64,000 nt of DNA from Auricularia sp. M13 (lineage: Eukaryota; Basidiomycota; Agaricomycetes; Auriculariales; Auriculariaceae). The notes under the pieces are model-generated. The model saw nothing but the letters and a program-made list of their open reading frames with translations, had not been told where the DNA came from and did no database searches. The position numbers and the translations under genes were made by a program. Of the stretch, positions 15,601 to 64,000 are shown piece after piece. The first letter of the stretch is position 1. Each line of letters begins with the position of its first letter. The stretch covers positions 2,728,001 through 2,792,000 of the forward strand of contig CM073199.1 in NCBI GenBank assembly GCA_037042915.1, written 5' to 3'.

Positions 15601-18370
15601 ACAGTAATGAGATGGATACCCACGATCCTCTCCTCAAGACCGTTCTTCCCCAAAACGCACACGGGCGGCTGTGCGATATTCCTTCATGAGTTCATCGCGT
15701 CGCACACATTCGAGCGCGGGGCCCACGGTGGCAGGATTGGTGCGCGAGTCCATGGACGCTGGTGAAGGGCTGTCTTTTCCGCGCAGCGCTTCGACATAGG
15801 TAAGCATTGCTGCTGCCTGGGGGTTGGCGGCCAGGCCGGCGTCAAGCTCGGACTGCACGCCCTCGAGCGCGTTGCAAAAGCTTGATCGAGGGCCAAGGAG
15901 CCGCGCTCGACCTTTGTGAGGGGCCTCGTGGGAAGACGTCGAGCAGGCCCGACGACATTGCACATAGGCTATACACGCATGTGGGTGTAAGAATCGGGTG
16001 ACTTCTGGGGCACAAGGGCTCACATACCAGGTGACGGAAGTGACGCTGGACCCATGAGCTCGAAAGCTTTCTGTCGCGCCGGTTGTTGTCCTGGGTGTCC
16101 ATTGGGCTGCGCGTCATAAGACCGCGCTGCTGACGCGTGTTTCGCGGGTGCAAGTCCCGCTGCCGCGACCTGGTAGGGGGGACGTTAGGGCCGATGGGCG
16201 AGCGTCAACGGGAGAAAGTGACGCGCACGATTGGTCAGGTCCTTCGCGATGCAATTTCTGCTGAGGCCGTTCCTCGTCGTCGACGACGAGTGCGCAGTCT
16301 GAGTGTGTTGTCGATCACCGGTAGGAACTGGCTGGCGGTGCGGTTGTAGGGGCGCTCACGGAGAGAGACGGGCGGAATCGTTGGCGCAAGGAGTGCGCAG
16401 CGGGGAGAACAGAGGACAGACGGGAATGGCGACCGGCGCGCGGTCGACCGCAAACACGGCGAACTCCGAGCGACCAAGGATGTCACGCTCGAAGAGAACT
16501 TTCCAGTACCTGTCGCACGCCAGAAAGTCGGAATCGGCATAGGAAAAAATGTCTTGAAGCATTGAAGCACAAGAGCTTATATGGTTTACCATGCGGTTCT
16601 TAAGCGCACGTTGAGCATTGAGCTGCGAGCACCGGCACGCCGGATGCAACACGTGCAAAGTCCGACCCGTGCTTCTCTGCACCGCGTGACACAGGGCGCA
16701 AAGCCGGTGGACGAATTCAGTGGATTCGACAGACTGACGAGTCACCCGCAGAATGCCGGTTTGTAACAATTGTGCAGTGGATTTACTATTTGTCGCGATG
16801 GCAGCAACCGCAAAATGTACATTTTGCCACAATCGAGACTGCGATTCATCAGTCTGTCGGTCGCCGGATTTGTCACCCGCTTTGCGCCCGGTCACTGAAA
16901 GAGGTTGAATACGCGCGAAGTATGCCGGTCGTATGGCGCAGATACCCCTCGACTACGAGCCGCATACGAGCCACATACGACCTGAGATATACGGGCGATA
17001 TCCTCAACCATATGACCTGCATATGGCATGCATATCGTTGGTCCGGAAACAACCTGGCAGCTAGGCCGCTCCGGTCACTGGCATGGCTTGCATATTGTCC
17101 TCGGGCTCAGGTAATCGGCCAATAAAGACTTAACGCTCGTAGAGCGTTGGTCACGATGTAAACGAAGCGAGGAAGAAGAACCAACTAGCGGAGTTTATAC
17201 CGTGGTCTGCGCCACGAAGGGCGGACTATCCTATGCTACATACTTGATGTTTTGACAAGACTCTCCAAAGGAGATATGGATGTAAGTCAACTAAATGATA
17301 GCATAGCAACTACACCCGAGCTGGAAACAGCAAAGGATACATGGGGGGGAACACTAAACTGACGCGGGAAGCACGGGTTCGTGGACGGCCTCGCGCAGCT
17401 CACCGTCCAGGTTGCCAGCCTCTCTGAGCCCGCGCCAATGCATGTCCCCATATAGCGAATGCCATGCCTGCTCTCAGCCCGGGTCCAGTACTGAAACAAC
17501 AAGCACGCGCAGCCACGTACCACGCACCTCCTTGCACCCACGCCGCTCCCAGACCAAACGCGGCCTCGGAATCTTGCTCGCTCCCAAAACTGGTGGCTAC
17601 ACTAACGATCAGCATGCAGGCAGTGTAAGAGAAGCTGCACGCACCCGCGGGGCGTAGCGCGCAGACTACCGTCGACACCGCGAGGTAGGACGAAGAAAAT
17701 CAGTCAAGGGCGAATACTCGCGCGGCCGATGGCAGAGGTACGGAACTGACTGCTTAGTTGCTGGCCGTGAATTTCAAGCTGTGCCAATGGATGAGTTAGT
17801 GCCTGGGAACGCGACGCAAGGCGCACCGTAATCTAAGCAATCAGATGCAAACTCGAGCCTAAAGCACCGTATGGGCCACATCAGAGCCTGGTTATATCAG
17901 CTCCAAAGTGAAATACGGCGCACCTGACGCGAGCTGTTTGCTTGTGTCGATGACTGTTGTCGTTACTACGCTTCCTGACCATTTCAACGAGTTGAACTTA
18001 CCCATTGTTGATAAATGCGTGCATTGAGCGCTGGCAATGAATAGTGGCCGCGCCTATTATTATTATACGTGAGTAAGTAAACGAAAGGGAAAACGGGACC
18101 ACTTGCCGTGTCGCGTTTCGTGTGGTATCCACCTGCCGGCTAAAGAAATATAGGTGGGTAAAATTCACAGATAATTAGTACGTACACTGCGTCACTGGGC
18201 CAGTGCAGATGCTGCCAAAGCTGCCCGTAAACACCGGTTCTTGAAGACGAAGTCCGGCGGCCCACCAGGCCCGCTGCGCGCGCAAGCCAGTACAGTGGTA
18301 GAAGTGCCTGGGAGGAAACGCGGGCACGGCATGATGCGGGGGGACACTTACGAGCAACGGGCCTAGTGGA
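15601..18370. other. Accessory non-coding stretch with protein-like remnants
   Basis: A minus-strand segment at about 15900-15760 reads ALEGVQSELDAGLAANPQAA and is protein-like but unassigned. Another minus segment at 16356-16895 has an open frame of 179 residues with YADSDFLACDRYWKVLFERD; no domain is recognised. Short direct repetition of catacgagc-type words occurs near 16955-17040. A TTA microsatellite lies near 18055. No start, splice pattern or promoter is convincing. Confidence 0.3.
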
Positions 18371-20330
18371 CGTTGCAGCCAGGAGGGAGAGGCGGCGAGA
18401 TCTGACGCTCTCGTCGACAAATCGTCGACGGTGCAACCAGAGTCAAGATACGCGAAGAGAACTAAGGCCTTCAGAGTCGTCGAAGTCGTGCCCAGACAGC
18501 AGAATTTGTTTGAAGAGGAGGGAACCTGGCGCTCGCGTTGACAAATCGCCAACGGTGCAGCCAGAAGGGACAGGCGGCGAGATCTGACGCTCTCGTCGAC
18601 AAATCGTCGACGGTGCAGCCAGAGTCAAGATACGCGAAGAGAAATAAGGCCTTCGGAGTCGTCGAAGTCGTGGCCAGACAGCAGAATTTGTTCGAAGAGG
18701 AGGGAGCCTGGCGCTCGCGTTGACAAATCGCCAACGGTGCAGCCAGAAGGAAGAGGCGGCGAGATCTGACGCTCTCGTCGACGAATCGCCGACGGTGCAG
18801 CCAAAGTCAAGATACGCGAAGAGAAATAAGGCCTTCGGAGTCGTCGAAGTCGTGGCCAGACAGCAGAATTTGTTCGAAGAGGAGGGAACCTGGCGCTCGC
18901 GTTGACAAATCGCCAACGGTGCAGCCAGAAGGGACAGGCGGCGAGATCTGACGCTCTCGTCGACAAATCGTCGACGGTGCAGCCAGAAGGAAGAGGCGGC
19001 GAGATCTGACGCTCTCGTCGACAAATCGTCGACGGTGCAGCCAGAGTCAAGATACGCGAAGAGAACTAAGGCCTTCAGAGTCGTCGAAGTCGTGCCCAGA
19101 CAGCAGAATTTGTTCGAAGAGGAGGGAACCTGGCGCTCGCGTTGACAAATCGCCAACGGTGCAGCCAGAAGGGAGAGGCGGTGAGACCTGACGCTCTCGT
19201 CGACAAATCGTCGACGGTGCAGCCAGAGTCAAGATACGCGAAGAGAACTAAGGCCTTCAGAGTCGTCGAAGTCGTGCCCAGACAGCAGAATTTGTTCGAA
19301 GAGGAGGGAACCTGGCGCTCGCGTTGACAAATCGCCAACGGTGCAGCCAGAAGGGACAGGCGGCGAGATCTGACGCTCTCGTCGACAAATCGTCGACGGT
19401 GCAGCCAGAAGGAAGAGGCGGCGAGATCTGACGCTCTCGTCGACAAATCGTCGACGGTGCAGCCAGAGTCAAGATACGCGAAGAGAACTAAGGCCTTCAG
19501 AGTCGTCGAAGTCGTGCCCAGACAGCAGAATTTGTTCGAAGAGGAGGGAACCTGGCGCTCGCGTTGACAAATCGCCAACGGTGCAGCCAGAAGGGACAGG
19601 CGGCGAGATCTGACGCTCTCGTCGACAAATCGTCGACGGTGCAGCCAGAAGGAAGAGGCGGCGAGATCTGACGCTCTCGTCGACAAATCGTCGACGGTGC
19701 AGCCAGAGTCAAGATACGCGAAGAGAAATAAGGCCTTCGGAGTCGTCGAAGTCGTGGCCAGACAGCAGAATTTGTTCGAAGAGGAGGGAACCTGGCGCTC
19801 GCGTTGACAAATCGCCCACGGTGCAGCCAGAAGGGACAGGCGGCGAGATCTGACGCTCTCGTCGACAAATCGTCGACGGTGCAGCCAGAGTCAAGATACG
19901 CGAAGAGAAATAAGGCCTTTGGAGTCGTCGAAGTCGTGGCCAGACAGCAGAATTTGTTCGAAAAGGAGGGAACCTGGCGCTCGCGTTGACAAATCGCCAA
20001 CGGTGCAGCCAGAAGGGACAGGCGGCGAGATCTGACGCTCTCGTCGACAAATCGTCGACGGTGCAGCCAGAAGGAAGAGGCGGCGAGATCTGACGCTCTC
20101 GTCGACAAATCGTCGACGGTGCAGCCAGAGTCAAGATACGCGAAGAGAACTAAGGCCTTCAGAGTCGTCGAAGTCGTGCCCAGACAGCAGAATTTGTTCG
20201 AAGAGGAGGGAACCTGGCGCTCGCGTTGACAAATCGCCAACGGTGCAGCCAGAGTCGAGATACGTGAAGAGAATTCAGGCCTTCAGAATCGTCGAAGCTG
20301 TGGCCAGACAGCAGAAGTTGTGGGGAGAGG
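18371..20330. repeat. Composite minisatellite of 124-bp (A) and 58-bp (B) units
   Basis: A-units start (agtcaagatacgcgaag) at 18441, 18623, 18805, 19045, 19227, 19467, 19707, 19889, 20129 and, diverged, 20253. Distances are 182 or 240 bp, that is one A plus one or two B units; the last step is 124 bp with no B. The B-unit contains ggcggcgagatctgacgctc and ends in tcgtcgacggtgcagccag, which also closes unit A. Numbers of B after successive A units are 1,1,2,1,2,2,1,2,0. Units are about 95% or more alike; A-units fall into two types (aactaaggccttcaga or aaataaggccttcgga). Frames on the minus strand stay open for up to 247 codons, but unit lengths are not multiples of three and the frames end in stops at fixed places, so coding is unlikely. 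Confidence 0.95.
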
Positions 20331-28117: not shown

Positions 28118-28298
28118 GTGTATTTTAAACAATGTATGCATTGCAGCCAACAATGTACTCCTTTGCGGCACAGTATGGTTCGTGACCTTGTCCGCAAGTT
28201 TCACAAAAAATATCCTGATCAGCCTGGGTCGTATGAGATGTTCCTGTTACGGCTCATTCGCTTTTCGCTCTTATCGCCGTTGGGCTTCTCAGACCTCA
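28118..28298 (+). pseudogene. Protein fragment cut off by an LTR insertion
   Basis: The frame reads PLRHSMVRDLVRKFHKKYPD and continues with aliphatic helix-like sequence to a point where the LTR starting at 28299 cuts it. Nothing that continues it is found after the LTR. It may be the beginning of a second gene of the CxC5/CxC6 element, since it lies only about 30 bp behind that gene. Family unknown. Confidence 0.35.
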
Positions 28299-29345
28299 TG
28301 TCACGGCAGAGCACTTGTCACTCGCCCAGACTGACGCCCAAGAGAGGAGAGAGGGATGAGGAAGAACAGACAAGAGGTACAATTGACCAGACCAAACCTA
28401 GGGTATATGCATCTACACCCCACAACCTATATACCCATCCCCAATGACCGCTGATCCGGTCCAGGGTAATCCTGGAGCTGAGGGACGCATCCACCATCAT
28501 CTACCCTGCCGCCGACACCCTAGGAAATCCCCACGAAGACAAGGACCAAGTAGAGGGGCAACCCTGAGGGTGCGAGGATGGCGCCGAGGTGCAGAGAACA
28601 TGGGCCTAGGGTCTGAGGGTGTAACCGAGCTTGTACCAGGCAATAATACCCTACATATCATCCATCCGAGGAGTACCACATCAGCGGGAAGTCCAACAGA
28701 GGTGCCTCCGAGCTTCTGAGGTTGCACAGGGCGTAAACCCAATGCCATCCGAGGTCCGAAGAGGGTCCTAGAGCATATCCTGAGCTGGACAACACCCGTG
28801 TTTGGCGTGTATGACAAGGTGAGAGCTGCCGAACCATGGTCTGAGGGCAGGAAGCCTCCGCCGAGCTGAAATGGAGTATACACCAATGTCGTCTCACCCT
28901 ATAGACAGATGGAGAGCAGCGCGCAGATCATATCCCAAGCCCAAACAGCCCGAGACGTAAAACCCTGGTCAAGTCTCAGTCTGATGGTAAACAGTGCACC
29001 AACTGTATGCAGCAGCGACCGGACGCTCGGCCAAGCAGCGTAGAACCAGCGGGTAAACGGGCAAAGTCTGCGAGGACCGTGACGACCGTAACACCTCACT
29101 CATGCTGACGTCACTCAGACTGAGGGTCACTCCAACCGAGGCTCGCCGGCGCATGCACGGCCCTGGTCCGCGATCAGCAGTCCAGCCGGTCCCAGACCCC
29201 CCTATATACCTTGTGTTGTCTGCTCTTTGTACGCTAGATTCGAGCTGGTTTGCCCACTGCTGATACATCTCGTCCTTTTTATCCCCCAGCGCAGAGCATC
29301 TGTTCGGCGAGTATCATCGGTCACCGTAACAGTTCCTGTTGTACA
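28299..29345 (+). mobile_element. LTR of a Ty3/gypsy- or copia-type retroelement, copy 1
   Basis: The segment runs from TGTCACGG to TGTTGTACA (TG...CA ends), about 1047 bp, and is followed after two bases by a primer-binding-site-like word (tggcgctgaac, 29348-29358). A TATA word (cctatatacc) lies at 29201-29210. Its first about 800 bp recur in the same orientation at 53595. No gag or pol sequence follows, so it is an LTR with only a short leader. A 5-bp target duplication could not be confirmed because the other LTR is missing. Confidence 0.7.
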
Positions 29346-31739: not shown

Positions 31740-33560
31740 AGCGCTGGGCGCATCAACCGTCGTGGGCGGCCGCATCCACTCGGCGCCGCGCGGTGGGAAC
31801 GCAGCAAGGGCGGGCCTCAAGTGCCTCACGAGACGACGACGGCGGCGGCCAGCGCGAGGAGGACGACGCTGCCGGCTGGACGTCAGTGCGGGGTGGGCGG
31901 GGTGCCTTGGGCTTGCGAAGCGACTTGGAATCGACAGCGCAGGGCACTTGCCGCGCGGTTGAGACGTGGTCTTGCAGATGGGGCACGAATACTGCTTCGG
32001 CTCGACGTTGCGCCAAACTGCAGCTCCGTGATACGCGTCCGGAATGGAAAGCTCGAGCAACGCCTCGTGTAGCTGGCGTTGATGTCCGGCCGATAGGCTC
32101 ACGACTTCATTGACACCATCGTGGCGCTGGATCTCGTATGTGATGTTGTCGGTGTAGGCGTTGTACTCTATATTACCTCGTTGCCCCTGGCGTTGCGCGG
32201 AATGATCGAGAGTCATCGGACGTTGAGGTATCTGTGCAACATCTGGCACGCGCGTCGCCCCTGGTTGGGGTGTTCCTGCTCGAGTGCCTTGAAGATCGCG
32301 CGGACCTTGCCAGCATTTCTGAAACGCGCGCACACACAGTCAGCGAGGTCGCTGCATGCCATGGTCGCATTTTCCCACGTGCCCACGAAGGTCGAGTCAC
32401 CGTGTACGCGAGCAAAAGGCCAAGTTCGACTGCAGGCGAGCCTGGCGTGGCACGTCCAGGTGAAAGCAGCGCCAAGCTGCCGGGTCTGGTGTTGGGAATG
32501 GTATTCTGCAGGTCGCAGTTCGGAGGGACCTCGTCGAAGTCCGCGATGTCCGTGTCCCAGTCTCCGCTGTGCACGCGCAACCCGAAGCTCGGCGACTGAT
32601 TCATGTTCCACTCCGAGAGAATGCCCGGTTCGACACCCTCCAACATCTCGCCCGCGGTCATGCCATCGATAAGTTCAGTCGTGAGTGAAGCAGGGCGTAT
32701 AGGCACTCGAGCCTTCTCGAAGACTGGGTCAATCTGCCCGGCGGCCGCGCGCTCCTCCTCGGTGGCGACGCAGTCGTCGACGGCATCTTCGTTGGTGAGG
32801 TCGTCTTCGTCGTCTGTGCGTCCGGTGCAGGAGGAGCGCCTGCAGGATCGTCCGCGTACATACCTTCATCGAAATCCGAGAGGCCGTCAGCGCCGGTCGA
32901 GCCCGAATCGCTGATCCAGCTAGAGTTGCTTGGCATCCTGGTCGGGCGCCCGTCGGCTCTGGAGGGACACGGCGCCGATATCCTATTCGGCCTGGACTCT
33001 CCCGCGATGGAGTAAGCAACAGACGTGGCTGCCTCGGTAGCGTGGCGAAGTTCGCGTTAGCGCTGCGTGATGGAAGCAGAGACGGGCGAGCGCGGCGGGG
33101 AACGTCTGGCGGGTCGAGCATCTGTGACATTGCAGAAGCGTCAGCATTCCGCGAGTCCGCCAAATGTACTGCGCGGACTTGCCTCCATTGGCCGACTGTG
33201 GACGCGAGATATACGTGGCTGCCTCGGTAGCGTGGCGAAGTTCGCGTTAGCGCTGCGTGATGGAAGCAGAGACGGGCGAGCGCGGCGGGGAACGTCTGGC
33301 GGGTCGAGCATCTGTGACATTGCAGAAGCGTCAGCATTCCGCGAGTCCGCCAAATGTATTGCGCGGACTTGCCTCCATTGGCCGACTGTGGACGCGAGAT
33401 ATCCATCGCAAAGTCCGGGGCGAAGCTGTCGGTGTCATCCGCCGGGAATGACTGGGTGTACGGCTTCCAGTCCTCCCCCTCGTCCGCGGGCGAGATCTTC
33501 CTGAGGCTCGTGCCAGTCCGGCTGCACCGGGGGAGCGGCACCATGAATGGCTTGAGTTGG
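31740..33560 (-). pseudogene. Decayed hypothetical gene with a CxxC site
   Basis: Minus-strand coding-like pieces follow one another in changing frames. From right to left: GEDWKPYTQSFPADDTDSFA (about 33480), an acidic DDEDDL segment (about 32810), ELIDGMTAGEMLEGVEPG and WNMNQSPSFGLRVHSGDWD (32680-32540), FVGTWENATMACSDLADC (about 32370), then YTDNITYEIQRHDGVNEVV and EPKQYSCPICKTT (32140-31960). A frame break with a stop lies near 32215, and another near 32400. The 190-bp duplication at 33023-33402 interrupts the 5' part. A gtaagt at 31736-31731 would start an intron, inside which the DNA element now lies. No family recognised. Confidence 0.45.
33023..33402. repeat. 190-bp tandem duplication
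   Basis: Bases 33023-33212 are repeated at 33213-33402, and I see one difference (tactgcgcgg against tattgcgcgg). The unit is not a multiple of three, so it shifts the frame of the surrounding minus-strand gene remnant. Near-identity means a recent event. Confidence 0.95.
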
Positions 33561-35951: not shown

Positions 35952-36697
35952 CGTCCGGTGGTTCGCATGCGAGCGGCTGTGAGGGGATGGGGACTACTCG
36001 CTTTCTGCGAGCCTGCGATTGGCACCCTCTCGACACTGCCTGCTGCATCTAACTTGCCCTTGCCGGTCAGTGCAGGTTGGGGGGAATACCGAGTTTGCGG
36101 AACGGAATAATTCCGTTCGGCGGATTGCGGAAACGGAATAATTCCGAATCCCCGATGAGCAAAAGCGGTCGATTCCGCACATCAAACCTTATTTTAAGAG
36201 GCCGGTATTTGTCAAGAACTGTCGTTGGACAGTGACGCGTCGCCTGGGGCTCGGGTCATTGGACGCTGTGAGCAAGCCGGCGAGGGTACTTCGTGTTCAC
36301 GGCAAAGACTACCTACGGCACATCCCGGTGTACTATACAGCGAACGGAGGTTGCCGAGGGCACTACAAGCACGCACCCAGAAGACATTCTGACAGTATTA
36401 CATGTTACAACGAAGCTATGGTCGAGAGTTTACAGTGAGAGGTCCAAACGCCTATGACCCGGAAATAAGCGCCCGGCAAACTCCTAGCTGGGAGACTGTC
36501 CAGGGCAACGATTAAGTCCTATGCGCAAGTCTCCGCTCATTTCTCCTCACAATAATTCTTGTAAATAGAATCTCTTGAGAGTAATAGACGGTATTTTTCC
36601 ATAAGACTGCCCATTCATGCTAGGAGACCATCTATCCAGTCAAATCCCATGAATAGAGCTAGGATTTTCAGAAACCGCCTCTATTAGAATGTGTGTA
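35952..36697. other. No supported gene; short palindromes
   Basis: Two copies of the palindromic word cggaataattccg lie near 36100 and 36135. Nothing coding is convincing. The TA-flanked MITE follows directly. Confidence 0.35.
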
Positions 36698-37078
36698 CTG
36701 TAAGCACACGCTCTATTACCGGCGCTGCAACCTCTGTGACATGGCGGGGACATTACCATGAGATGGCCGTGACCGTGACCATTACCGGGAGTTCGTTCAT
36801 CTTCTCAGGCAAAAAACACCTCTTGAGAGAGGAAATTGGAATTCTCACCAGCCGGACAGATGAGAAGTCAGTCAGTGGTGATGGAGATGTTATTTGAAGG
36901 CTTACTGGACTGCCGCGAAGCGGGAAAGAAATTTTTGGCTGGATCTGAGCTCTCGCATCTCGATGTGCTGTGACGTCTCAATACCTCGGGCACTCTGTGA
37001 CCCGTTACAAAACGCGTTTATTACCGCGCCGCGCGACCTCTGTGACGCGTGACGCGGTAATAGAGCGTGTGCTTACAG
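36698..37078. mobile_element. TA-flanked MITE, copy A, 381 bp
   Basis: It starts ctgtaagcacacgctctatt and ends with the exact reverse complement (aatagagcgtgtgcttacag), with TA on both sides. Short terminal repeats and TA duplications are the mark of Tc1/mariner-class elements. The interior has no transposase. A second copy at 44925-45302 is almost identical. Confidence 0.9.
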
Positions 37079-37429
37079 TAATGGCCTTCGATGAGTATCT
37101 GCAAAGGGAGGGGAGTTGTAATGCTGTGGTTAAGGAGATCATTGCCAGTCTTTGCCGGGGTGTCCGAGTGGCCTCTAGAAGCAAGCCGACGGCCCGGATA
37201 TCTCGGCCATCTTCTCCGCTTCGTGTTTCTCCGTTCTCATTGTAGGATAGTGCATAGCTCAGGGAATAAATACTAGCATTAAGAAACGAGGCAGATACGA
37301 AGGATACAAACATCACTACATGTGGATATCGGATAATCACCCATCTAGGCCCTCGGCGCGCGAGATGACGAGGGCTGGGCGCTGCCGGCAGACTCGAGCA
37401 ACAAAGAAACTCATCAATGCGCCTGCCCG
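37079..37429. other. No supported gene
   Basis: A tRNA-like D-arm phrase (gtgtccgagtggcc) occurs near 37159 but no B box follows. Frames are short. Nothing else is seen. Confidence 0.35.
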
Positions 37430-44044: not shown

Positions 44045-44924
44045 CTCGGAACTGTTTCGGGCAGTTCCGGCCCACTTCCGCTCTGCCTCTCCCCACTGAA
44101 CGTTCCTAAGCCTACAATTCCGGCTCTGAACTTCATTGAATGTAACAAAGCCTACATTTTAGCCCATTATCAGTGCCTCTACAAGATGTATAGGAGCACA
44201 GGATGGGCGTAAAGGCATTCAGGGAAAGGATGCAATATTGACGGTGTTCCCAAGCGAAGCCACAATGCGGCAATATCATAATTAGATGAGACGACCGTTC
44301 GAGTTTTTGGGGGAGCTGCCACAGGAGAAAATTGCTGTGAGAGCCTCGGACACGGTGACCAGAGAGTACTTGAAGGTCGTTTACCAAAACGGCAAGCCTA
44401 CGGAGGCAGCTCGGAGGCAGTCCTTGCAATCCCATTGGAGCGGAGCCTGAGCGGACCGAAACGGGCCGAAGATTTTATCGTTTCAAAGACCCCCCTCTGA
44501 AAATCCAACAACCTAAAAAGGCATAGACTATCGTCTAACCTTTTAGGAGTTGGTGACAACTTCCGTCACCGGCCATCGAAGGCAGGCCCTCAGGTAAAAC
44601 TTGGCAGTGGATAAAAAAACCCAGTGGGACAAAAAACAACCACTGCCAAGAATGAGCAGCTGTTCGCAGCATGCTCATGAGGGCCATGACATGGGCTGTG
44701 TAAGATTAACACTGAACGGCACTGAGAAAGTGAGTTGAGATATCCGCTCACAGCGAGTTACTGCGAATTCAATCGAGGCAATCGAGAGCACTCAGCTGTC
44801 CAACTGTCGTCAACTCAAAGACCGTCAGCTCGAACGTGGCAAAGGACGACTTGGTTGACTATGACCATGATACCGCCCTCCGAGTCTTCTCAGGGTCGGA
44901 ACCGAGTCGCCAAAGGCCGCCGTA
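44045..44924. other. Non-coding, with hairpins
   Basis: A hairpin with 11-12-bp arms (cttggcagtgg ... ccactgccaag) lies at about 44600-44652, and a smaller one (cctaaaaagg ... ccttttagg) at about 44510-44550. No gene is seen. They could be parts of a small element or terminators; neither can be shown. Confidence 0.35.
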
Positions 44925-45302
44925 CTGTAAGCACACGCTCTATTACCGGCGCTGCAACCTCTGTGACATGGGGACATTACCATGAGATGGCCGTGACCGT
45001 GACCATTACCGGGAGTTCGTTCATCTTCTCAGGCAAAAAACACCTCTTGAGAGAGGAAATTGGAATTCTCACCAGCCGGACAGATGAGAAGTCAGTCAGT
45101 GGTGATGGAGATGTTATTTGAAGGCTTACTGGACTGCCGCGAAGCGGGAGAGAAATTTTTGGCTGGATCTGAGCTCTCGCATCTCGATGTGCTGTGACGT
45201 CTCAATACCTCGGGCACTCTGTGACCCGTTACAAAACGCGTTTATTACCGCGCCGCGCGATCTCTGTGACGCGTGACGCGGTAATAGAGCGTGTGCTTAC
45301 AG
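44925..45302. mobile_element. TA-flanked MITE, copy B, 378 bp
   Basis: Same ends and TA flanks as copy A (36698-37078). I count one 3-base gap (acatggcgggg against acatgggg) and a few base changes (gcgggaaag/gcgggagag; cgacctctg/cgatctctg), so the copies are about 99% alike. The terminal repeats are intact, so the family moved recently. Confidence 0.9.
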
Positions 45303-47391
45303 TAGTCGCACCAAGGTGCGATACCCACGCGCGAGGTCCGGTCCGGGACTCGATCTCCAAGTTGTGCTGCCGCGGCGACGGCCAACTGGTGCACCGTCTG
45401 GCTCGACAGTGGGCCAGTCGCCATCGCAGGCCGGTCTGTGCGACAGGGGCTCGGTCGATGCTAGCGCCGCCCGTGCATCGGAGCAGTCTGCGTAGCTTTC
45501 CTTGACCAATATCCATGCTAGACTCTTGTCATAGGGTCAAGACGCAGGCTGCCAATTTTGGGTATCTATTTTGCTTGAGGAGAACGGCCTGCCGAGACAC
45601 GCTGCGGCCGCCGTCGCAAAGACTGCCGAATGTAAAGACACGGCTTCTCATGTCTCCGTGATGGTGATAAATGAGTATATCAGTACTCTCTATGGTTTTT
45701 GAGTAAGTTCACTCGGTTCTGGGACGATTTTCTGAAGCAGAGGACGCCGAGAGTCCCTGGCTTTAATCTGATAGTCTTACAAGCCGACATGCCCCAGGCG
45801 CCGCGTGCAAATGCGTTAAGACGCGTTCAAACTATATCATTGAATGATGACTAGTCTCATTATGAGCGGGAGCGTCTCCTGTGCCTGTGTGCGCCGCGAT
45901 GGGACGCCCATTCAATCTGAACAGGCGCGTCGCGGCTATGTAGATGCTGGGTTTCCGCGTACGAGCGCAACAGGTGCAAGCTCGAAGTCGTCGTTGATAA
46001 CCACGTACAAATACTAGTAGGCGTCGATCCGAGAGGCGAGAGAGCATTATTGACTGTACAGTACCGACATCCTGCTGCCATTCTTGCCTTCACAGCGCAT
46101 CTGAACTTGTTTACAGGAGGGCTATAGTCTAGACTACGATGTAATCTCAGCGAACACTTATTAATATGCAGGGAGTTCGCATGGTACTCATGGAAAAGCT
46201 CACATCTTGATGTCAAGTTCTTCGCCCTCCGGTCCATGGAAAATCAATGCATCAACGATATCATGCTCACCATACTATTAGAGTTATGCACAAGGATTTG
46301 TGCTCAATAATCGGGACAAATGGTCATTTACGCCTGGAGATTCAGAATCCTCAGCACGAGGTATGGGAGATCACTGATTTACAGCACTTAATGCCGACGG
46401 TCGGCGACGTTTGAGGTGGAGAAGGACACCTTAGATGTCGACAGTCGTGGTGAATCAACCCTGGGGATGTTCAAGAGCTGTCCGTCATGAGTCTCAAATC
46501 GGACTGGCCCCCGACCGAGCATCATGATCAGCACCGGAGCCGGATCACCGAAGCTGGCCAGTCAGGACTTCCATAGTGCTCGAACCCGCTCGACCGCCGC
46601 GCTCTCGCCTCTTTTGTCACCAACAGCTTCACCAACCCACCCGGGATGATTCTATTCGTGAACCCCGGTTCATAAGGTTTCATCGAGATCCGACTAGTCG
46701 ATCCGATGGCACCGAATCGCCGCGTTGTCCGCGGCCCTGGACACCGTCCTCTGCGCCATGAGATTAGCCAATTTACTCGGATTTAGTGCGTCGGGACGGT
46801 GTTCGGCCCCTCCCAGAGCTGCAAGCGCCGGTTTGCTCTGCATGAAGGCGACGACCCCTTTTCTTGCAGGTGAGAGGCGTTGAAATAAAGCAAACAACAT
46901 GGTAGAAGCCCAGTAGAAGCCTCAAGTCCGATTATGACGCACTGCTACAGCTGCTCTGAGGCCCACTTCGGAACTTTTCGGAACGGGTTCATGTCGACCC
47001 ACCCGATGAACCCTGGGATTCATGCATGAACCCGGGTTCATGAATAGAACAATCGGAGTTTGACACTCAGGATGGGAGGAAGTTTTGGTGGCCGAGAGGA
47101 AGTGACAATACATAAATTATAACGACCGCCTTAGGAGCTGTTGTTTTGGACGAGGGTCAGGTACCGGCTGAATTGGCGACCTGCTGCTGGTTCAAGTCCG
47201 GCTATAGTGTACCTTTTATACTTCATTCCCATCATGTAGATTTTTCTTCCTAGATTGTTCCTCAATTGTCATTATTATTTAAAAGGCATCTAATGAATCA
47301 TAGAAACTTTTGACTTTTTTTTTTCTTTCTTGGACTTGGTCTTAGATTCGTCTCGTCACTCACGCGGAGATCACGGCCGGTGATTAATATT
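45303..47391. other. No supported gene
   Basis: Several small palindromic words with tgaaccc/gggttca occur at 46640-46680 and 46985-47045. A B-box-like word (ggttcaagtcc) is at 47189 but no matching tRNA structure is found. Frames are short and domain-free. Confidence 0.35.
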
Positions 47392-52603: not shown

Positions 52604-53594
52604 GGGCTCGGCGCCGTGGTCCTGTACTTAGTTTTCTTGTCGCAAAGGGCGCGTGTACAGAATATAAATAGCTTTCTTGGACTTGTGACCGAGGTGGGAG
52701 TCCGAACCAGCATAAAACCAAACGGGGCTCCTTCCTGCGGGTCCGAGGTTCGGTTCCGACCGCCAGCGCATCCATCCTGGTTGGGTTCCATCCAATGTAC
52801 GCCTCCTGCGGCCGAATCCAGTGTCCGAGGGTCATTGGATTCCAGTCCTGTACCGTGTCCTGTTGGTCTGCGCACCGACCCATAAAGCATAAGGGAGATA
52901 AGGAACGTGTGGAAGTCGCCCTCGGCGGCTATGATTCGCGCAGCGAGCGAAGTTACTGGTCGTGGGAGCCTCGGGGCGAGCTCAGAGCATCGTTAAGCGT
53001 CGTACGCGTCGTTCAGCCAGCGGCCGGTGGTTCGTGAGGTCCTCGGGGCGAGGGTATGCATATCTCGGGCGTTGCGGCGTGTGCATCCAGTCCATCCGGA
53101 TCACAGCTGAGGCCCCATCTGCCGATGGCGTGCGAGAGGGGAGGTGTAACAGCTGTGACTTGAGCGCGCAAGTCCAGACAACCGGGGTGGGATTTTGGGC
53201 GTGGGCGAGTGTCTCGGTTTACTCGCCGAGGTAGAGGGTGCGGAGGAGGTGCTGCACCAGGGGTCGCCGAGGGCAGGATCGGGGTATCCCGCGCGACCGT
53301 GTGGAGGGGCTGTGCCAAGGGCTTGGTCATGCGCTGCGGCCGATGGTGTGGCCATGGAGATAGGGCCTTGGCAGCGTACGCCTCGCTTCTCGGTGTGGGT
53401 GGCGACTCCGAGGGGGAAGGATGCAGGTGCCAATAGACCTCGGCTGGTGCACAGCGGCTAGCTGATGGCGAGGCCGGCCTGCTGAGGTCTTCGGCGTGAC
53501 ACACGGGCGATAGTAGTCGGAAGGACGTCGCGGCCATGTGGGGGAGAAGAAGAGGGGTGAGCGTCGGTCGAAAGGGAGTGAAGGTTTGGTCTTA
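52604..53594. other. 3' flank, no supported gene
   Basis: Begins with the likely 3' untranslated part of the preceding gene. GC-rich frames on both strands are low-complexity and overlapping. Nothing regulatory is recognised. Confidence 0.35.
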
Positions 53595-54440
53595 TGTCAC
53601 GGCAGAGCGCTCATCACTCGCCGAGACCGACGCCCAAAGGAGGAGAGAGGGACGAGGAAGAACGGACAAGCGTTACAATTGACCAGACCAAACCTAGGGT
53701 ACATGCATCTACACCCCACAACCTATATACCCATCCCCCAAGGGCCGCTGATCCGGCCCAGAGTGATCCCGGAGCTAATGGACACACCTCTCGTCACCGC
53801 CCATGGCGCCGACTCCCCGCCAAACCTCCAGTCGAGCACGGTCTGAGGCGGGGCTAAGGTGCCGAGATATACCATACACACCGAGGACACGGACCGAGGA
53901 GGAGGGCGTTACACGGGCGCATGGGGACGGCGCCGAGCTGCTGAGAGCCAAAGCCGAGAGTCCGAGGGTGTAGCCAAGCTTGTACCAGGCGATAGTAGCC
54001 TCAATACTATCCGTCCGAGAGGTAGCGCGCCAGTGGGAAGTCCAATAGAGGCGTTCCTGAGCCCCCCGGGGGCTGCACAGGGTGACCAGCCGAGCCCGTC
54101 CGAGGTCCGAAGATGGGCCTAGAGTCTGTCCCGAGCGTCACAGCACCCGTACCTGATGCATACAGCGAGGTGAGAGCTGCCGAACCATGGTCTGAGGGTA
54201 GGAAACCTCCACCAAGCCGAATTGGGGTATGCGCCAAGGTCGTCTCACCCCATAGACCGATAGAGAGCGGCGCGTAGATCATATCCCGAGTCGTTCAGCC
54301 CGAGGTCTTCAACCCTGGCCGAGTCTCAGTCTGAGGGTAAACAGTACGCCGACTGTATGCAGCAGCGACCGAACGCTCGGCGAAGCGGCGTAAAACCCGC
54401 GGACAAACGGACAGAGCTTGCGGAGACCGTGAAGACCGCA
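53595..54440 (+). mobile_element. LTR copy 2, truncated at its 3' side
   Basis: Starts tgtcacggcagagc like the LTR at 28299 and matches it, with many substitutions, for example ttgaccagaccaaacctagg and acaacctatatacccatccc. Similarity ends near accgtgaagaccgcaaca (54440), so the last about 250 bp, including the TATA part, are missing. The two copies are clearly older than the MITE pair. Distance and lack of pol genes argue against the two LTRs belonging to one element. Confidence 0.75.
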
Positions 54441-54711
54441 ACAGATTGTCAGCCATCGCCGCAACCGTAAAAGAGGCCTGATGGAGTATCTCGTTTGATG
54501 GGAAGGTTACGGACCCTCGCACAATGAATGGTTGTCCGCGCAAGAACGGCGAAATGCTCCCGCCAGGTTGCTCGATTACCGGCGTGCCCACAACCTTTAA
54601 ACCTCTAGTTGTCGCTTGGCCCGCGAGCGATGACGGAATCACCGTCCTTACCCGGTCACTAGATATTCCACGTTTATTTTAATTTCCGATTCTCCTTCAT
54701 TCCTCTTTCCC
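54441..54711. other. Upstream region of the next gene
   Basis: Unique sequence between the truncated LTR and the ATG at 54712. Just before the ATG the strand is pyrimidine-rich (ctccttcattcctctttccc), as often found before fungal start codons. No TATA word is obvious. Confidence 0.35.
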
Positions 54712-57121: not shown

Positions 57122-58709
57122 CAGCGGATTGCCCGGTGCATTCCCAAAAAGGCCACTGATGGGATGGAGACTGCTCCTGCGCAAGGAGTCTGGTGCCGCC
57201 TGCAGGCGGAAGATCCAGAGCTAGTGGATACGCTGCGACGCGAAGAATATTTCGACACAGGGGCGCTCGGCGCCTGGTTTCTAGACCCACTTGCAAGGCG
57301 AGCGAAGCTGGAAGAGCTCATCCGGCTCGGTGTGCCCGTCTTCTACCCGTGGTCCATGAACTTGGAAGAATTGTCTCCGATACTTGCTATGCCCGCGGAG
57401 GCCTCGATCTTCCTGCTTCAGTGGCGCGCGCGCGACCGCTTGCATCCTGGGAGGTCAACCCAGAGCCATCGCGCGCCTCGACCCCGACCGTCGACTCAGC
57501 GGAGTCCTGCAGCGTCACGCCGGACGCCTCTCCCGCGCCAGAATTGGTGGAAGAGTCGGACCCCGTCCCGAAAACGTTGCTAGAAAGAATCTCGGTGCCC
57601 AGGTCGAGCGTCAGCTCAGACGAGAACATGTACGACTACGGCTATGACGAACAGACCTGGAGCGCACTGGCTGACAAGCTGGACGAAATCGAGGGGGTTG
57701 GGCAAGGCGAGACGAATTCGAGCCCGCCGGGCAACGAGCGCATCAAGGAGGACGTCATCGAGGTTAACAACGGCCGCGTCGGTCAGCCGGATGACGCCTT
57801 CCCTACCGAGGGCCGCCAGTTCTTCTTCGTACACAGTGCTCGCCTCCAGACGTGGCTGGGAGACGACCTGAAGTTTGCCCCTTGCAAACAGGTGGATAAA
57901 CAGATACAGTGCGTGCTGTCGGACGACACTGATTTCCTCACCTCGCTCTGCCCACCACGAAGCCGAGTCTACGACGGTGACGACGACACCTGCATGGCGG
58001 AAGCGCCAGGAGGAGAAGTCGTTGCTAGGGCCCCTACGCTGCTCATCTATGATGACGGACTAGTTCGTCACGCGTTCTCATACGCATTCTCTGTGGGCAT
58101 CGTCAGCGACTTCAACGAGCTCGTCGAGTTTCTCATAGAGAACGGGATGCGTTTCTCGACGGGTATAGAGGTGTCTGCGCCAGAGCCCATCCACGCTAGG
58201 AACGACCATCAAGTCCCTAGGCACTACTGGTTCGACGAGGAAGCAACCCTGGCGCGGCAGTACGCGCACTGGTCAGCCGCCGTCTACAAGATCGCCGACC
58301 TGACGCACGTCGCCAGAGCCGCCATTGCTCGCGGTGGCATACTAGCACTGGCGCTGCGTGCCTTTTCTGAGCCTCTATTCCCTCTTCGTCCCACTGCCGC
58401 GGTGTTCAAGTACGGAAGCTCAGCTCCCACACATGTCATGATGACTGGCTGTCGGAGGAAGAGGAGACGCTGCTTCTCGGATACTCGTCGCCGCAAGCCA
58501 CGGGTAGTCTCCTTCCCCCGGTCGCGGTGTTCAACCGCTACTTCGCCGGTATTCTCTCAGCACAAGTGGAGAACTGGTTCAACAAGCGCATTCTGGAGCT
58601 CAAGTGCGGCACGGGCCTCGACTCGAGCAAACGGGAGAAAGGAGCCATGAGCGGCAACGAGTGGAAGCGTGCGCTGCGTACCGCTGCGCGGAATTGGTAC
58701 TCCTCATGA
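57122..58709 (+). pseudogene. Multi-copy hypothetical family member with two frameshifts
   Basis: Starts after an AG with RIARCIPKKATDGMETAP, then DPELVDTLRREEYFDTGALG and AKLEELIRLGVPVFYPWSMN. The frame changes inside a CG-dinucleotide run (gcgcgcgcgcga, about 57427-57438) and goes on with an acidic middle (NMYDYGYDEQTWSALADKLD) and FFFVHSARLQTWLGDDLKFA. A second change near 58440 leads to WLSEEEETLLLGYSSPQATG and RYFAGILSAQVENWFNKRIL, ending WYSS at 58709. Total about 520 codons. If the two single-base shifts are real the gene is broken; the CG run is also a place where sequencing or polymerase slippage is likely. No named domain. Its first exon is duplicated at 35155-35240, so the family has several copies. 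Confidence 0.6.
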
Positions 58710-59584
58710 TCGACCCTTGGAGGGGGGGCTCTGTAAGGGGTACTTTGGACTAACTCCGAGCGTCGCTCACTAGGATTGTTTGTTTTGACAATACACATCT
58801 TACCGTCTTCGCATTCTCGTTCTCGTTCCGGCGCAAAGCCTGAACCGTGAACCGGGAATAGCGAGACTCTTTCGACGATCTATAGCGCGCCTCTCCCGTC
58901 CTCGTAGCTCGCCCACGCGTGCAAGCCCTTTGTACCCTTGAGACTCTCTCCAGCTCTCGAACTCTTTACACCTCTGCCGGTTGCTCGTAGCATGCAGTTA
59001 GGCTTTCCTACTTGAACCTCAACGAGCGGACCCGCGCTCGTTACACTGCTTTCTTGCACCATTGACGGCAGACGATCTGCCCAGCGAGCGTGGCCTGACC
59101 TCTTCGCATCACAGTGTGTTTTCTCACTGTCAGGGGTCCTCTAAATGCACTAGACACCACTCCGATCTGGTTAGGAGACCCCAGGCAATATCTGGAATTG
59201 CTGCTGCTTTTTTGCACCATTGACGGCAGATGGTCTGCCCAGCGAGCGTGGCCTGACCTCTTCGCATCACAGTGTGTTTTCTCACTGCAAGGGGCAAGCT
59301 CCTCCCCAGCAGATTCGCCAGCATCATGATCGTGCTTGTATCCTCGCAGGTGTAGAGTACGTAGTAAACCGGTGCAGAGATTGATTGCCGAGAATATACC
59401 AAAAGTTGGGGCGATGTTACGCTGGCGAACCGTTGGCACAACTTGTACAAGCGCCCAAGGAGCGCACAGGAGATCAAGCCCAAAAACCGGGCCGTTGATG
59501 TCCGCCGGCGTTTGCAGCGCCAGGCGCCGTGGCGCGTCGCGTCGCGTCGCAGTCAGTTTTTCACTTGCACCGTTGTATCGCGCC
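58710..59584. other. Intergenic region upstream of the RecQ-like gene
   Basis: Contains the tandem-like pair of 76-bp repeats described separately. No frame is convincing. The last 200 bp before the ATG at 59585 are the presumed promoter and leader; no TATA word stands out. Confidence 0.35.
59054..59287. repeat. Pair of 76-bp direct repeats 158 bp apart
   Basis: Bases 59054-59129 (ttgcaccattgacggcag ... tgttttctcactg) recur at 59212-59287 with about two differences. The spacer holds an imperfect inverted repeat (aggggtcct ... aggagacccc). The pair lies about 300 bp before the RecQ-like start, so it may be promoter duplication or the subterminal repeats of an element. Confidence 0.85.
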
Positions 59585-62216
59585 ATGCCGCCGAAGATGC
59601 CATCCCTCGAGCAGCATCGACAACGTGCTTTGGAGGTGTTTGGCAAGCTGCCATGCCTTTCACAGGCGCACATCAGTCTTCAGCAGATGCAGGGCAAGAA
59701 CTGCTTTTTTATCTCGGGCACGGGCAGCGGCAAGACCTTGACCATATGGCTGCCACTCATACACAATGAAATCAGCACACTTCTGGTGTTCTCTCCCTTG
59801 CTGGTACTTGCGGCTCAACAAGCTGCTGATCTGACAGCGTCTGCTGGTGCTTCAGGGATCAAGGCTGTTGCGCTGACAGGAACTTCCTGCTCGGCGGTTG
59901 CTGTCAAGGTGGGCTCACTGAACAATCCGGTTCTCCCTGGTCTAATTAGTCTTTTAGAGCGTGGCAGATGGACAAACACGTGCTGTGATTATGCCTCCCG
60001 AGCTTGTCGACGATCCGTGTGTCGAAGATCTGGGACTCCAAACGGTTTACCAACCATCTCGGGTTGTGTTTGACGAGGTACACTGTCTCAGTACATGGAG
60101 CCGCAGCTTTTGGCCCAGCTACATGGCTGCAGTTCAGCTTCTCTGGCGGCTCCCTCCTGGGACTCGCATATACGGACTCTCGGCGACGCTCTCGGAATCT
60201 GTTCTATCCGATTGTCTGAGCATCCTGCGTTTGGATCCAGGGAAAACCGTCATTGTCAGACGAAGCAACAATCGCCCGAACATCCGCTACAGTGTCCGGC
60301 AGATGCAGTTTGGAATGCAAACTTGTGCTGATGCCGCGTTCATCATCCCCTGCTCTCCTGGCGCTGGTTTCGTGAGGCCGCCCAAGGTCATGCTTTTCTG
60401 CAACAGCCGAGGTGATGCTGAGGCCATCGGAGACTACTTCATACGGAGGGTTGGCTTCGGGAAGGTGGTCTGGTACCATTCTGGCCTGAGTGACGCTTTC
60501 AAGGAGGAAAAGGTTCGGCAGTTCAAGGTGGGTGAGATCTGGGGTCTTATTTGCACAGATGCAGCTGGAATGGTATGCCCTATACATACTAAATTCGCAT
60601 ATTTCTCATGATCTTTCAGGGCTTAGACATTCCGGATATCAAACTTGTTGTGCAGTGGAAGGTTCCCGATTCCCTCGATACACTGATGCAGCGTTTTGGG
60701 CGCGCCGTCTGTGACCCTGCTCTCGAAGGAGCGGCAGTTCTTATCGCAGAGCCATCGCGATTCTGGAAGGACAACGATGGACCGGGGTCTGATGCAGAAG
60801 ACGCCAAAGCCGTTGTCGCGGCACAGTCCCGAGCGCCGCATGTTCAAAACGTACGCCCACCTGCCACGCTCCTAGCTGCTCCTACAGCAGTCATCCCCGC
60901 CAAACGAAAGCGCAAAGGCTCAGAGGTCAATCACGACATGGACCTTTTTGTTAATGCAGGGCGCACGGCGTGCAAATTGATGAATTAGTACCGGTCCGAG
61001 CGCATGTACATACACCGTGCCGGACTCCGATATGATAACTCTCCCTTTCCCCGCTCCATCCCCTGCCTGTTCCAACACAAATGCCGTTGGAAGGTGGTGT
61101 GCAAACACTACAGCAACGACAAAGCTGGTGCGTAACCATTTCCTTGCTCGAATCTCTATCTTACTTGATGTAGACACTGAGGATTCGTGCTGTGCGTGTT
61201 GCCAGCCTCCTGCGGGTCGCGTTTGCTGCGATATTTGTCAACCGGACGAATTTGCAGCACTCGATATCGATGCGCTAGACCGGCCAAAGTGAACTCGGGG
61301 CAAGAACAAGACCAAGACCCTGCCCTACGAGCGCGGTCCAAAGGAGAAGGCCATCTGGAACGAGCTACGGGTCCTCCGCGCTGCTCTTGCCGTGCGCGAG
61401 CTCGGCAGGATCTATCTCGCCGCAGAGGCCTTTCTTGGTGACGAACTACTTGACATTTTTGTAGATCTGGCCCATTATAAGGCGCTCAACTCTCCGGAGG
61501 ACTTGTATCGCGAGACCACGTGGGTCTATGCAGAAAAGTATGGCGCCGAGATCCTTGAGCTCGTCAAGACACACATCCCGCAGTCGGGCGCGGAGGCTGC
61601 ATCCGTTGACAGTGCTACTACTGCTGGTATGTCCTCTGTCTCTCTGATAATCCGTTTCTCACTCTCTTTGTCTAGATGGCCTGCCGGCTCGCAAGAAGGC
61701 GAAGACTACAACTACGTCGAGCTCCACGTCGCACCCCGTGCTTGCAGATGCAACCAATACAGCGCCGCCAGCTGCCAAAGATACAAGCTCAGAAGGTTTA
61801 CGCAAAAAGGCAGCGCAAAGCTGTTGCAAATGTGGTGCAAAGACTCATATTGGTAAGTGCTGCTGCGTGTGCAACGTTGCAGCATCATAACACTTGTTGC
61901 AGCATCAAATCGCATGTGCCCTATGCATCCCAAATCATTCACGCGTCCTCCGACCGCCCCAAGCATATCATCTTCCCCTCTCCCAGCCGTCACTTCTGCT
62001 CCTGTCGCACCAAGCACATCATCTGACATTGTTCCGCCTGTCGCACCCGTTCCCACTGTCCTGAGTGCACCAACTCCCTTTGTCCCGAGTGCACCAACTC
62101 CCTTTGTCCCGAGTGCACCATCATCTGCTCCTGGTCCTGTTGCATCGTTACCGCTGTCCGTGTCAGCCCCATTGACGCTCGGGCCCGTGCCCCCCGAACA
62201 CTTTTATTCTAATTAA
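59585..62216 (+). pseudogene. RecQ-like DNA helicase with C-terminal cysteine clusters; two in-frame stops
   Basis: Six exons stay in phase: 59585-59908, 59958-60572, 60620-61127, 61174-61626, 61676-61852, 61903-62216 (797 codons). Helicase motifs are in order: GTGSGKT (45-51), DEVH (147-150), SAT (183-185), a LFCNSR segment, TDAAGMGLDIPD (about 308-319) and QRFGRA (337-342). These fit the RecQ branch of SF2 ATP-dependent 3'-5' helicases. The end of helicase domain 2 is followed by Cys-rich segments (CCACCQPPAGRVCCDICQPD; later CCKCGAKTHIGASNRMCPMH) and a Pro/Ala/Ser tail. A TAG at 60986-60988 stops the frame after 435 residues, and a TGA at 61290-61292 is a second stop; coding character and splice phase continue past both. 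A truncated 435-residue helicase core could still be made, so function is uncertain. The stop codon touches that of the DUF6589 gene on the other strand. Confidence 0.88.
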
Positions 62217-63999
62217 CTACAGATCTAGATAGTCTATGAACTCATTGATCTCCTCGTCCGTCAGCAAGTCCGCATATTCATTCTCTAGATCTCCCTCACT
62301 GGGATCGGTCACACGATCATCTGGCACACCATCAAGCTTGACAACGAGTATCTTATCCCGCGAGAGTTTAATCATCCCCGCAGTAAGCTGGTTGGGTACA
62401 GATTTGGGTGCCTTTCTCCCCGAGCATTCTTGGTGGATCCTGCTTGCAACAATCATGGAGATGAGATTGCGGATCGTCTTCGTCATATCTGGGGGTTGGT
62501 GGCGGATATACCGGTGCGTCAAGTGGAAATTGTGCTCGACAAGTGTGAGGCACGAGCGGTAGAGTTCGATCAACAGTGAATGTTTGATTATACGCTCGAG
62601 GGTACGGTTTGAACTTTCACCCGCATGAATTGTCTGGAACCATCCCGTTCAGTATGCAGTGACCCTGAAAACATGCTCTCACCTTTTGTAGCATGTTGTT
62701 AACCTCCAGGAGCTAGTCAACCCCACGGAAACCATCAGCCTTGCCAGACGGGTTGCAGAGCCAGTTCATTCTGACAGCGCGCGCCGTTTGAGGTGGCAAA
62801 AAGTGTTGAAGATTTGTGAGGAAGCGTGACAAAAACGTCGCATACTTGTGCTTCCCCACTGCCATGAAGATGAATATCCAGAAAGCCAGATTCTTCTCCA
62901 CGCGTCCAATATGGCCATGCGCGGAAGCGTGGCAGAGTTCCAGGTAAAGGATAGCGTCCCGGTGCCACAGCTGCGAGTTCTCCAATTCCTGATCGCACTG
63001 ACTGGCCGGCCGAAGTCTATCGCCATTGAAACTCTCGCCGGCCACAAACCGTGTGACCAGGGTCTCTGAGAGGGACACAATCTGTGTCCACGGAGGGTTA
63101 CTCGCGGCAAAGGCCTCCAGACTTTTGTAGCCAAGCTCGCCGACAATAATGGTCCAGCAATCGAGCATAGATGCTTCTGTCACATACTGGATGATATCAT
63201 GCAGCTGACGGAAGGTAGGCTTTGTACCAATCTTGATAGACTCCTTGGGGCGTAGTTTGCATGCGAAGGTGTATACTGACGTTGAGTCCCCACGAAGAGA
63301 GACAAACGGCTCGATGTAAATCCGCCACAGAGCTTCTGCGGCTGCCATCTTGATGTGGAACATGCCAGGTACGCCAAGGACCCATTGCAGGCCATTTTCA
63401 GCAGTGCCCTCGATACGGCGACTCTTGATCAGCGAATCCACCTTCTCCAGGGTTGCGAGATCCCCGTGAACTAGCATAACATATTCCTCAAGCTCCTGGG
63501 ATCGACCTTTGAAGCCAGCCTGCTCTAGCATCTCCGCCAGGATGGCAGCCTGTGCGTCATTGGTGCTCTCGTCTATCTGCATTGTCCTGGCAGGATATTG
63601 AACGGTGCGAGAGACTGAAATCTCAATCTCGCCCTCAGTGCTGCGAACAAGAATTCGACGTGCATGGTAAGCATATATTGGGGCGGGATAGTCTTCATCG
63701 GGCATGAGCTTGGCTATATCTGTGAAGTTCATGCGGAAAATCGGAACACCGTCAAGGCGTTCGTAATTGAGCACCGATTTACGCCAAAGCTCCGCGCATA
63801 CACAAAGATCCCAAGGTGTTGCATGCACAATAGCGAGAAACGTAGCAGAGGTGACGTTGAACCAGGTGCTCTGCTTCTCAACAGTGGGCTGCGAGGTCTT
63901 GAAGCCGAGGTTCAGGTTGTCGTATGCGAAATTCAGAATCCAACGCCCAGCAAGAGCCATGATCTGATGGCGATTATCGTTGGTGAGAGAGTTTACCAT
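62217..63999 (-). pseudogene. DUF6589 protein, 5' end beyond the window, one in-frame stop
   Basis: The minus-strand frame 63999-62683 (439 codons) and exon 62633-62217 (139 codons) join in phase over a 49-bp GT...AG intron. Typical DUF6589 blocks: WILNFAYDNLNL, LNYERLDGVPIFRMNF, VMLVHGDLATLEKVDSLIKS, VLGVPGMFHIKMAAAEALWR, WLCNPSGKADGFRGVD, then AGESSNRTLERIIKHS. DUF6589 is a fungal-expanded family of unknown function; conserved Asp residues in YDN and HGD suggest a nuclease or transposase fold (inference). A TAG at 62715-62713 interrupts the frame directly after F-R-G-V-D, while the same frame goes on to the splice site (LLEVNNMLQK). An ATG is present at 63999, but homologous proteins are longer at the front, so the gene probably continues outside. 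It converges on the RecQ-like gene without spacer. Confidence 0.85.
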
Positions 64000-64000
64000 C

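Follow-up and report, generated by a model that had tools for sequence, protein, structure and literature searches.

The window analysed here is a 64,000-nucleotide stretch of the Auricularia sp. M13 genome (52.1 Mb in 14 contigs; C7:2728001-2792000 in our numbering). Its right-hand end holds two genes that run towards each other on opposite strands, a RecQ-like helicase gene and a gene of the Pfam family DUF6589 (PF20231), and both lie inside a transposon of 5,915 bp (C7:2787295-2793209) that begins at window position 59295 and extends 1,209 bp beyond the window end. The features of the locus, in window coordinates, are these:

59046 to 59294, plus strand: satellite of 158-bp units (1.6 copies), the insertion target; the unit starting at 59046 is the paralogous empty site
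59286 to 59294: left 9-bp target site duplication, TGCAAGGGG; its right-hand counterpart, CGCCAGGGG, falls beyond the window end, and 7 of the 9 bases are identical
59295 to 64000: in-window part of the transposon, from blastn inverted repeats and an end scan
59295 to 59538: left terminal inverted repeat (TIR), which starts CAAGCTCC; its partner, C7:2792966-2793209, lies outside the window
59585 to 62216, plus strand: RecQ-like helicase gene, with at least three introns suggested by frame changes; broken by in-frame stops
60978 to 61077, plus strand: insertion of about 100 bp within the helicase gene, which the related copies C6 and C9a lack
61188 to 61238, plus strand: helicase Cys cluster CCACCQPPAGRVCCDIC, from the window sequence and a family alignment
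62214 to 62219: touching stops, helicase TAA (plus strand, 62214-62216) and DUF6589 TAG (minus strand, 62217-62219)
62217 to 64000, minus strand: DUF6589 gene, coding for a probable transposase; it runs beyond the window to about C7:2792960 and is broken

A preliminary description of this DNA had singled out the zero-base junction between the two genes, and the letters bear it out: the helicase TAA is followed at once by CTA, the minus-strand TAG of the DUF6589 gene, with 0 bases between. Its placing of the gene pair holds for that junction but not for the outer limits or the state of the genes, as the element starts at 59295, to the left of 59585, and both genes are broken. The zero gap itself is not conserved. 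In the three copies measured the stops are 0 bp (window copy), 3 bp (C9a) and 11 bp (C6) apart, and because of these other values the exact zero is one value within a tight tail-to-tail layout. The helicase ends in EHFYSN in the window copy versus DRFYS in C6 and EEFYP in C9a, and the DUF6589 protein in FIDYLDL versus LMELADL and FIENMDL in relatives; on this comparison both window stops look like true C-termini that recur among relatives.

The identity of the minus-strand protein is clear from a Pfam search, where it matches DUF6589 at E 2.1e-78. The helicase exon at 59958-60587 matches DEAD at 1.9e-5 (24.9 bits, just below the Pfam cut-off of 26) and Helicase_C at 6.9e-5 (at the cut-off). 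The long open frame of a relative (771 codons, C2:936103-938415) hits 35 distinct PDB sequences at E 0.001, solved RecQ5, BLM and RecQ1 being among them. The Cys clusters of the helicase had been called extra. They are present, and in the last of them one Cys is kept in 18 of 18 aligned copies and two others in 16 of 18, but they seem not to be extra: we take them to resemble the usual RecQ zinc-binding module plus a CCHC zinc knuckle. The Pfam search of the window helicase gave no match to a domain of zinc-binding type for these clusters.

The boundaries of the window copy are marked in several ways. Its TIRs measure 244 bp at 92% identity (248 bp counting four flanking bases; blastn). The two duplications TGCAAGGGG and CGCCAGGGG and the empty site TGTCAGGGG are each one base off a common 9-mer, and the flanks, joined with one duplication removed, match the satellite at 59046-59247 over 202 bp, ungapped, at 89.6%. 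The window copy is inserted into the 158-bp satellite, as the decayed 9-bp duplication and the paralogous empty site show. The satellite has 68 matches (3 of 8 candidate places scored), all on C7 and most in a 16-kb stretch, C7:2500970-2517175, about 270 kb from the window; the short block at the insertion site is an outlier from it.

The window copy is also inactivated. The helicase frame has in-frame stops at 60986-60988, within the insertion of about 100 bp, and at 61290-61292, and the DUF6589 frame has one at 62713-62715, directly before a conserved LLE..N..K motif. Because these stops break both genes, the copy is dead and neither full protein is encodable. C6 and C9a are free of these stops; the C9a helicase also shifts frame within an exon. 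The inserted repeat is flanked on either side by CAAAT and occurs elsewhere at C11:1051415-1051514 (99%) and C11:1746281-1746382 (85%). An Rfam scan of window 58500-64000 gave no match at E 0.1. Judged by TIR identity, C9a, C6 and C2a (99 to 100%) are younger than the window copy (92%).

The pairing of the two genes recurs across the host genome. There PF20231 gave 36 matches, grouped into at least 21 loci, and the window's helicase exon, used as query, gave 20 matches, or 18 RecQ-like loci. Sixteen of these 18 independently found loci adjoin one of 21 DUF6589 loci. The seventeenth (C3:145k) adjoins a C-terminal remnant of DUF6589 at C3:147906-148232, and the eighteenth (C7:1520k), judged by eye, is a host RecQ of Sgs1/BLM type. 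Three further helicases, on C11, C4 and C10, were found by reading the DNA next to DUF6589 loci, which brings the DUF6589 loci with an adjacent RecQ-like gene to 19 of 21. The genes of the pair lie on opposite strands in all 20 pairs that include the C3 remnant (16 convergent, 4 divergent). By chance about 0.1 pairs would be expected within 6 kb (21 x 21 x 12 kb / 52.1 Mb).

Common ends and target site duplications are found as well. Blastn of the islands against themselves shows inverted repeats of 47 to 336 bp enclosing the gene pair in seven copies; besides the window copy they measure 336 bp at 99.4% in C6, 263 bp at 100% in C9a, 127 bp at 100% in C2a, 101 bp at 79% in C9b, 62 bp at 81% in C2b and 47 bp at 85% in C3. 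In C1a, C1b, C10, C13 and C2b the two termini agree at 10 to 11 of their outermost 12 bases. Of the 14 copies scanned, 10 gave ends; the helicase sits between them in 10 of 10, and apart from the 7/9 duplication of the window copy all are flanked by exact 9-bp duplications: CCTCCGAGC (C6), ACTCTGACC (C9a), GGATCGAAC (C2a), GGCTCTTAG (C9b), ACGTTCAGG (C1a), GACGCGGCC (C1b), GTGGCTTGC (C2b), CCGCTTCGC (C10) and GCGCTTGGC (C13). These nine differ in sequence between copies. There are two types of terminus, CAAGCTCC/CATACTCC and TAG...CTA, and 9-bp duplications occur with both. A 30-bp end scan ranked inner positions first for several copies, including C9b and the window copy; the ends of these two were picked by the terminus common to other copies. 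A scan for 12-bp ends plus a 9-bp duplication covered nine islands, at 6.7 million position pairs each, and gave the outer ends of five copies. About 0.001 matches with a 9/9 duplication and at least 10/12 terminal bases would be expected per scan, and all five such matches have TAG ends.

Short, TIR-only, non-autonomous derivatives exist alongside the two-gene copies. The C6 terminal repeat has 12 matches, including four short two-ended elements of 533 to 572 bp (two on C11, one each on C3 and C10); three of the four carry an exact 9-bp duplication, and the fourth matches at 4/9 at the listed end and 8/9 one base further. The C1a terminal repeat, which represents the second terminus type, has 41 matches; leaving C1a itself aside, 13 pairs of them face each other at distances of 0.7 to 1.3 kb. 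The C9a repeat has one short partial match besides its own ends, and the window-copy repeat has no genome match other than its own two ends. The facing pairs, known by their ends alone, include, at a spacing of about 0.8 kb, C1:794133-794950, C1:4936802-4937618, C8:987244-988101 and C1:6819988-6820844; for the divergent type of element there are 13 of them versus 4 divergent loci with both genes. Two element copies, C8:2900039-2907405 and C2:932651-938395, are 99.4 to 99.7% alike, and the C8 copy contains inserted DNA in which a 184-bp repeat occurs twice without any difference (2901031-2901214 and 2902590-2902773).

These observations bear on one alternative, namely that two ordinary nuclear genes happen to converge here, or that the helicase belongs to a Helitron. 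RecQ genes are normal in hosts, and one of host type is present in this genome at C7:1520k (by eye), but ordinary host genes would not come with TIRs, target duplications, an empty site, recurrent linkage and TIR-only derivatives, and a host gene pair was rejected on these grounds. Helitrons are not known to have TIRs or target duplications; both are present here, and a Helitron was likewise rejected. We give this alternative, in either form, next to no weight. The linkage, the ends and the duplications support a two-gene mobile element in which DUF6589 is the probable transposase and the RecQ-like protein its helper, as the preliminary description had suggested. Neither of the two outcomes that it had named as fatal, copies of the families that are not neighbours or copies that share no outer boundaries, was obtained.

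The two genes also share a history. Maximum-likelihood trees were built for DUF6589 and for the helicase from stitched translated pieces of 18 pairs. The trees have 13 of 15 splits in common, versus a maximum of 3 and a mean of 0.3 in 2,000 label permutations; five clades are present in both, and the splits that differ are deep and weakly supported. One row (C5b) covers 36% of the DUF6589 columns, and for the helicase tree the program warned that long branches meet, C5a with C4a and with one other. The agreement shows that DUF6589 and the RecQ-like helicase have stayed together while their lineages diverged deeply. All four divergent pairs fall into a single clade, and the change of gene order therefore probably happened once.

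Conserved residues in DUF6589, which Pfam lists as a family of unknown function, are consistent with a transposase. All 18 rows keep the D of a "GD" motif and, 35 residues further on, an H; all 17 rows that cover the site have the E of "E..N...K", and 13 of 14 covering rows have the D of "DN". We infer that D, D and E, together with the invariant H, form a candidate DDE active site. The DUF6589 profile found no relative in IMG/VR.

A transposon with a DDE transposase and a RecQ helicase in fungi brings to mind KolobokH, which pairs a Kolobok transposase with such a helicase (PMC9587614); the RecQ partner and the fungal host would fit. In KolobokH, however, the helicase is placed downstream of the transposase domain, whereas here it is a separate gene on the opposite strand in 20 of 20 pairs. 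Kolobok elements typically duplicate TTAA at their target, in contrast to the 9-bp duplications of unlike sequence found here; if Kolobok keeps strictly to TTAA, these duplications refute it. Nor is the Kolobok C/DxxH motif kept: the H is invariant but the residue three before it varies. KolobokH was rejected on the duplications and the opposite-strand helicase, and we consider it very unlikely. Other fungal DNA transposons with TIRs, namely Zisupton/KDZ, hAT and Plavaka, differ in their duplications, which measure 8 bp in Zisupton, 5 to 8 bp in hAT and 2 or 3 bp in Plavaka versus 9 bp here; the word RecQ does not occur in the main text of that source (PMC12730594).

The combination of 9-bp duplications, a superfamily 2 (SF2; DEAD/RecQ) helicase inside the element and TIRs matches that of AcademH. 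This group of the Academ superfamily is credited to Kojima (2020). AcademH duplications are reported to be 9 or 10 bp long and those of AcademX, likewise of the Academ superfamily but with a nuclease in place of the helicase, 3 or 4 bp, the length being tied to the helicase or nuclease carried (PMC10045372). AcademH is low-copy in Basidiomycota, Ascomycota and Mucoromycota (PMC10799480), and among 1,938 fungal Academ copies 1,568 hold recognizable domains such as DEAD/DEAH helicase and recQ_fam, the copies being frequently annotated as host genes (PMC6416283). Putative non-autonomous Academ insertions are described as widespread in the agaricomycete Marasmius oreades (PMC8290104), and a report on bivalve Academ (PMC10294476) does not contain the word helicase. 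The idea that the pair represents an undescribed class of element is not supported in the face of these sources: fungal Academ with DEAD/RecQ domains and AcademH with 9- or 10-bp duplications are in print, and published AcademH fits. The window genes very probably form the inside of an AcademH-type DNA transposon, in a copy that has been inactivated, and DUF6589 is most likely the AcademH transposase. The new point is this probable link between DUF6589 and the AcademH transposase, the kind of element having been described already. A literature search on RecQ, TIRs and Basidiomycota gave one paper, on a Helitron. A full-text search for "DUF6589" and "PF20231" found no DUF6589-Academ link in print: "DUF6589" is absent from the literature searched, and the four papers with "PF20231" are on other subjects by title.

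That absence also leaves some room for another view, in which DUF6589 elements are a separate, non-Academ superfamily of RecQ-assisted transposons that arrived at a RecQ partner and at 9-bp duplications by convergence, and in which the putative homology of DUF6589 with the Academ transposase would not hold. If this were so, which we think improbable, DUF6589 would have been tied to its RecQ partner since before the five deep clades split, and the superfamily would have two gene orders. Against it, the element agrees with descriptions of AcademH in its RecQ helicase, its TIRs, its 9-bp duplication and its low copy number.

Several points weigh against reading these loci as AcademH-type elements with DUF6589 as transposase. 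First, the kinship between DUF6589 and the Academ transposase is drawn from element features, compared by description. Second, two of the 21 DUF6589 loci, C3:2421k and C5:4016k, have no helicase in the stretches read (4012901-4018963 for the latter); the 3′ side of C3:2421k meets a dispersed repeat at 2423531. Third, no ends were found in 4 of the 14 scanned copies (C3:2045k, C5:161k, C5:3963k and C2:726k, the last scanned without its outer flanks), the C8 copy is without a left end (by eye), and 7 other loci stood outside the scan. Fourth, the C5a copy, which may itself be dead, has N in place of the first candidate D. Finally, a profile search at E 10 found no solved sequence relative of DUF6589 among PDB sequences, and a single-sequence AlphaFold model of the window's DUF6589 open reading frame gave a mean predicted local distance difference test score of 34.7 and no usable fold. 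The dispersed repeat that abuts the cut locus at C3:2423531 is about 850 bp long, lies in the window at 53591-54443 and 28295-29093, and has at least 42 genomic matches, with 40 of 217 candidates scored.

With the AcademH-type reading, a mechanism can be proposed. DUF6589 would act as a DDE-type transposase that binds the terminal repeats, excises the element and inserts it into target DNA across a 9-bp stagger, and the RecQ helicase may open or remodel ends or gaps while strands are being transferred and repaired. In the window, C6 and C9a copies the start of each gene lies in, or a little inward of, one of the terminal repeats, and the repeats therefore probably hold both promoters. The stops would touch because the genes run inward from the repeats and end tail to tail in the middle of the element; in one clade the pair has the divergent order instead.

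Other repeats lie in the same window. Direct repeats of 386 bp at 36695-37080 and 44922-45304 (98.7% identical, 8.2 kb apart) are possibly the long terminal repeats of a recent retrotransposon. A tandem array with several overlapping periods, its copies up to 97.7% alike, occupies 18366-20330, and a 190-bp unit stands in direct tandem duplicate at 33023-33402 (99.5%). KDZ transposase domains are abundant in the host genome, with at least 149 matches (150 of 163 candidates scored) versus 0 in 14 control genomes; with one weak hydrophobin match besides, the host has the look of an agaricomycete.

These findings give DUF6589, which Pfam lists without a function, a probable role as transposase and a set of candidate catalytic residues. 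They would also explain why RecQ-like genes seem expanded in such genomes: they would be transposon genes, which are readily annotated as the host's. Lastly, the shared history of transposase and RecQ-like helicase makes control of the long 9-bp stagger by the helicase a testable idea.

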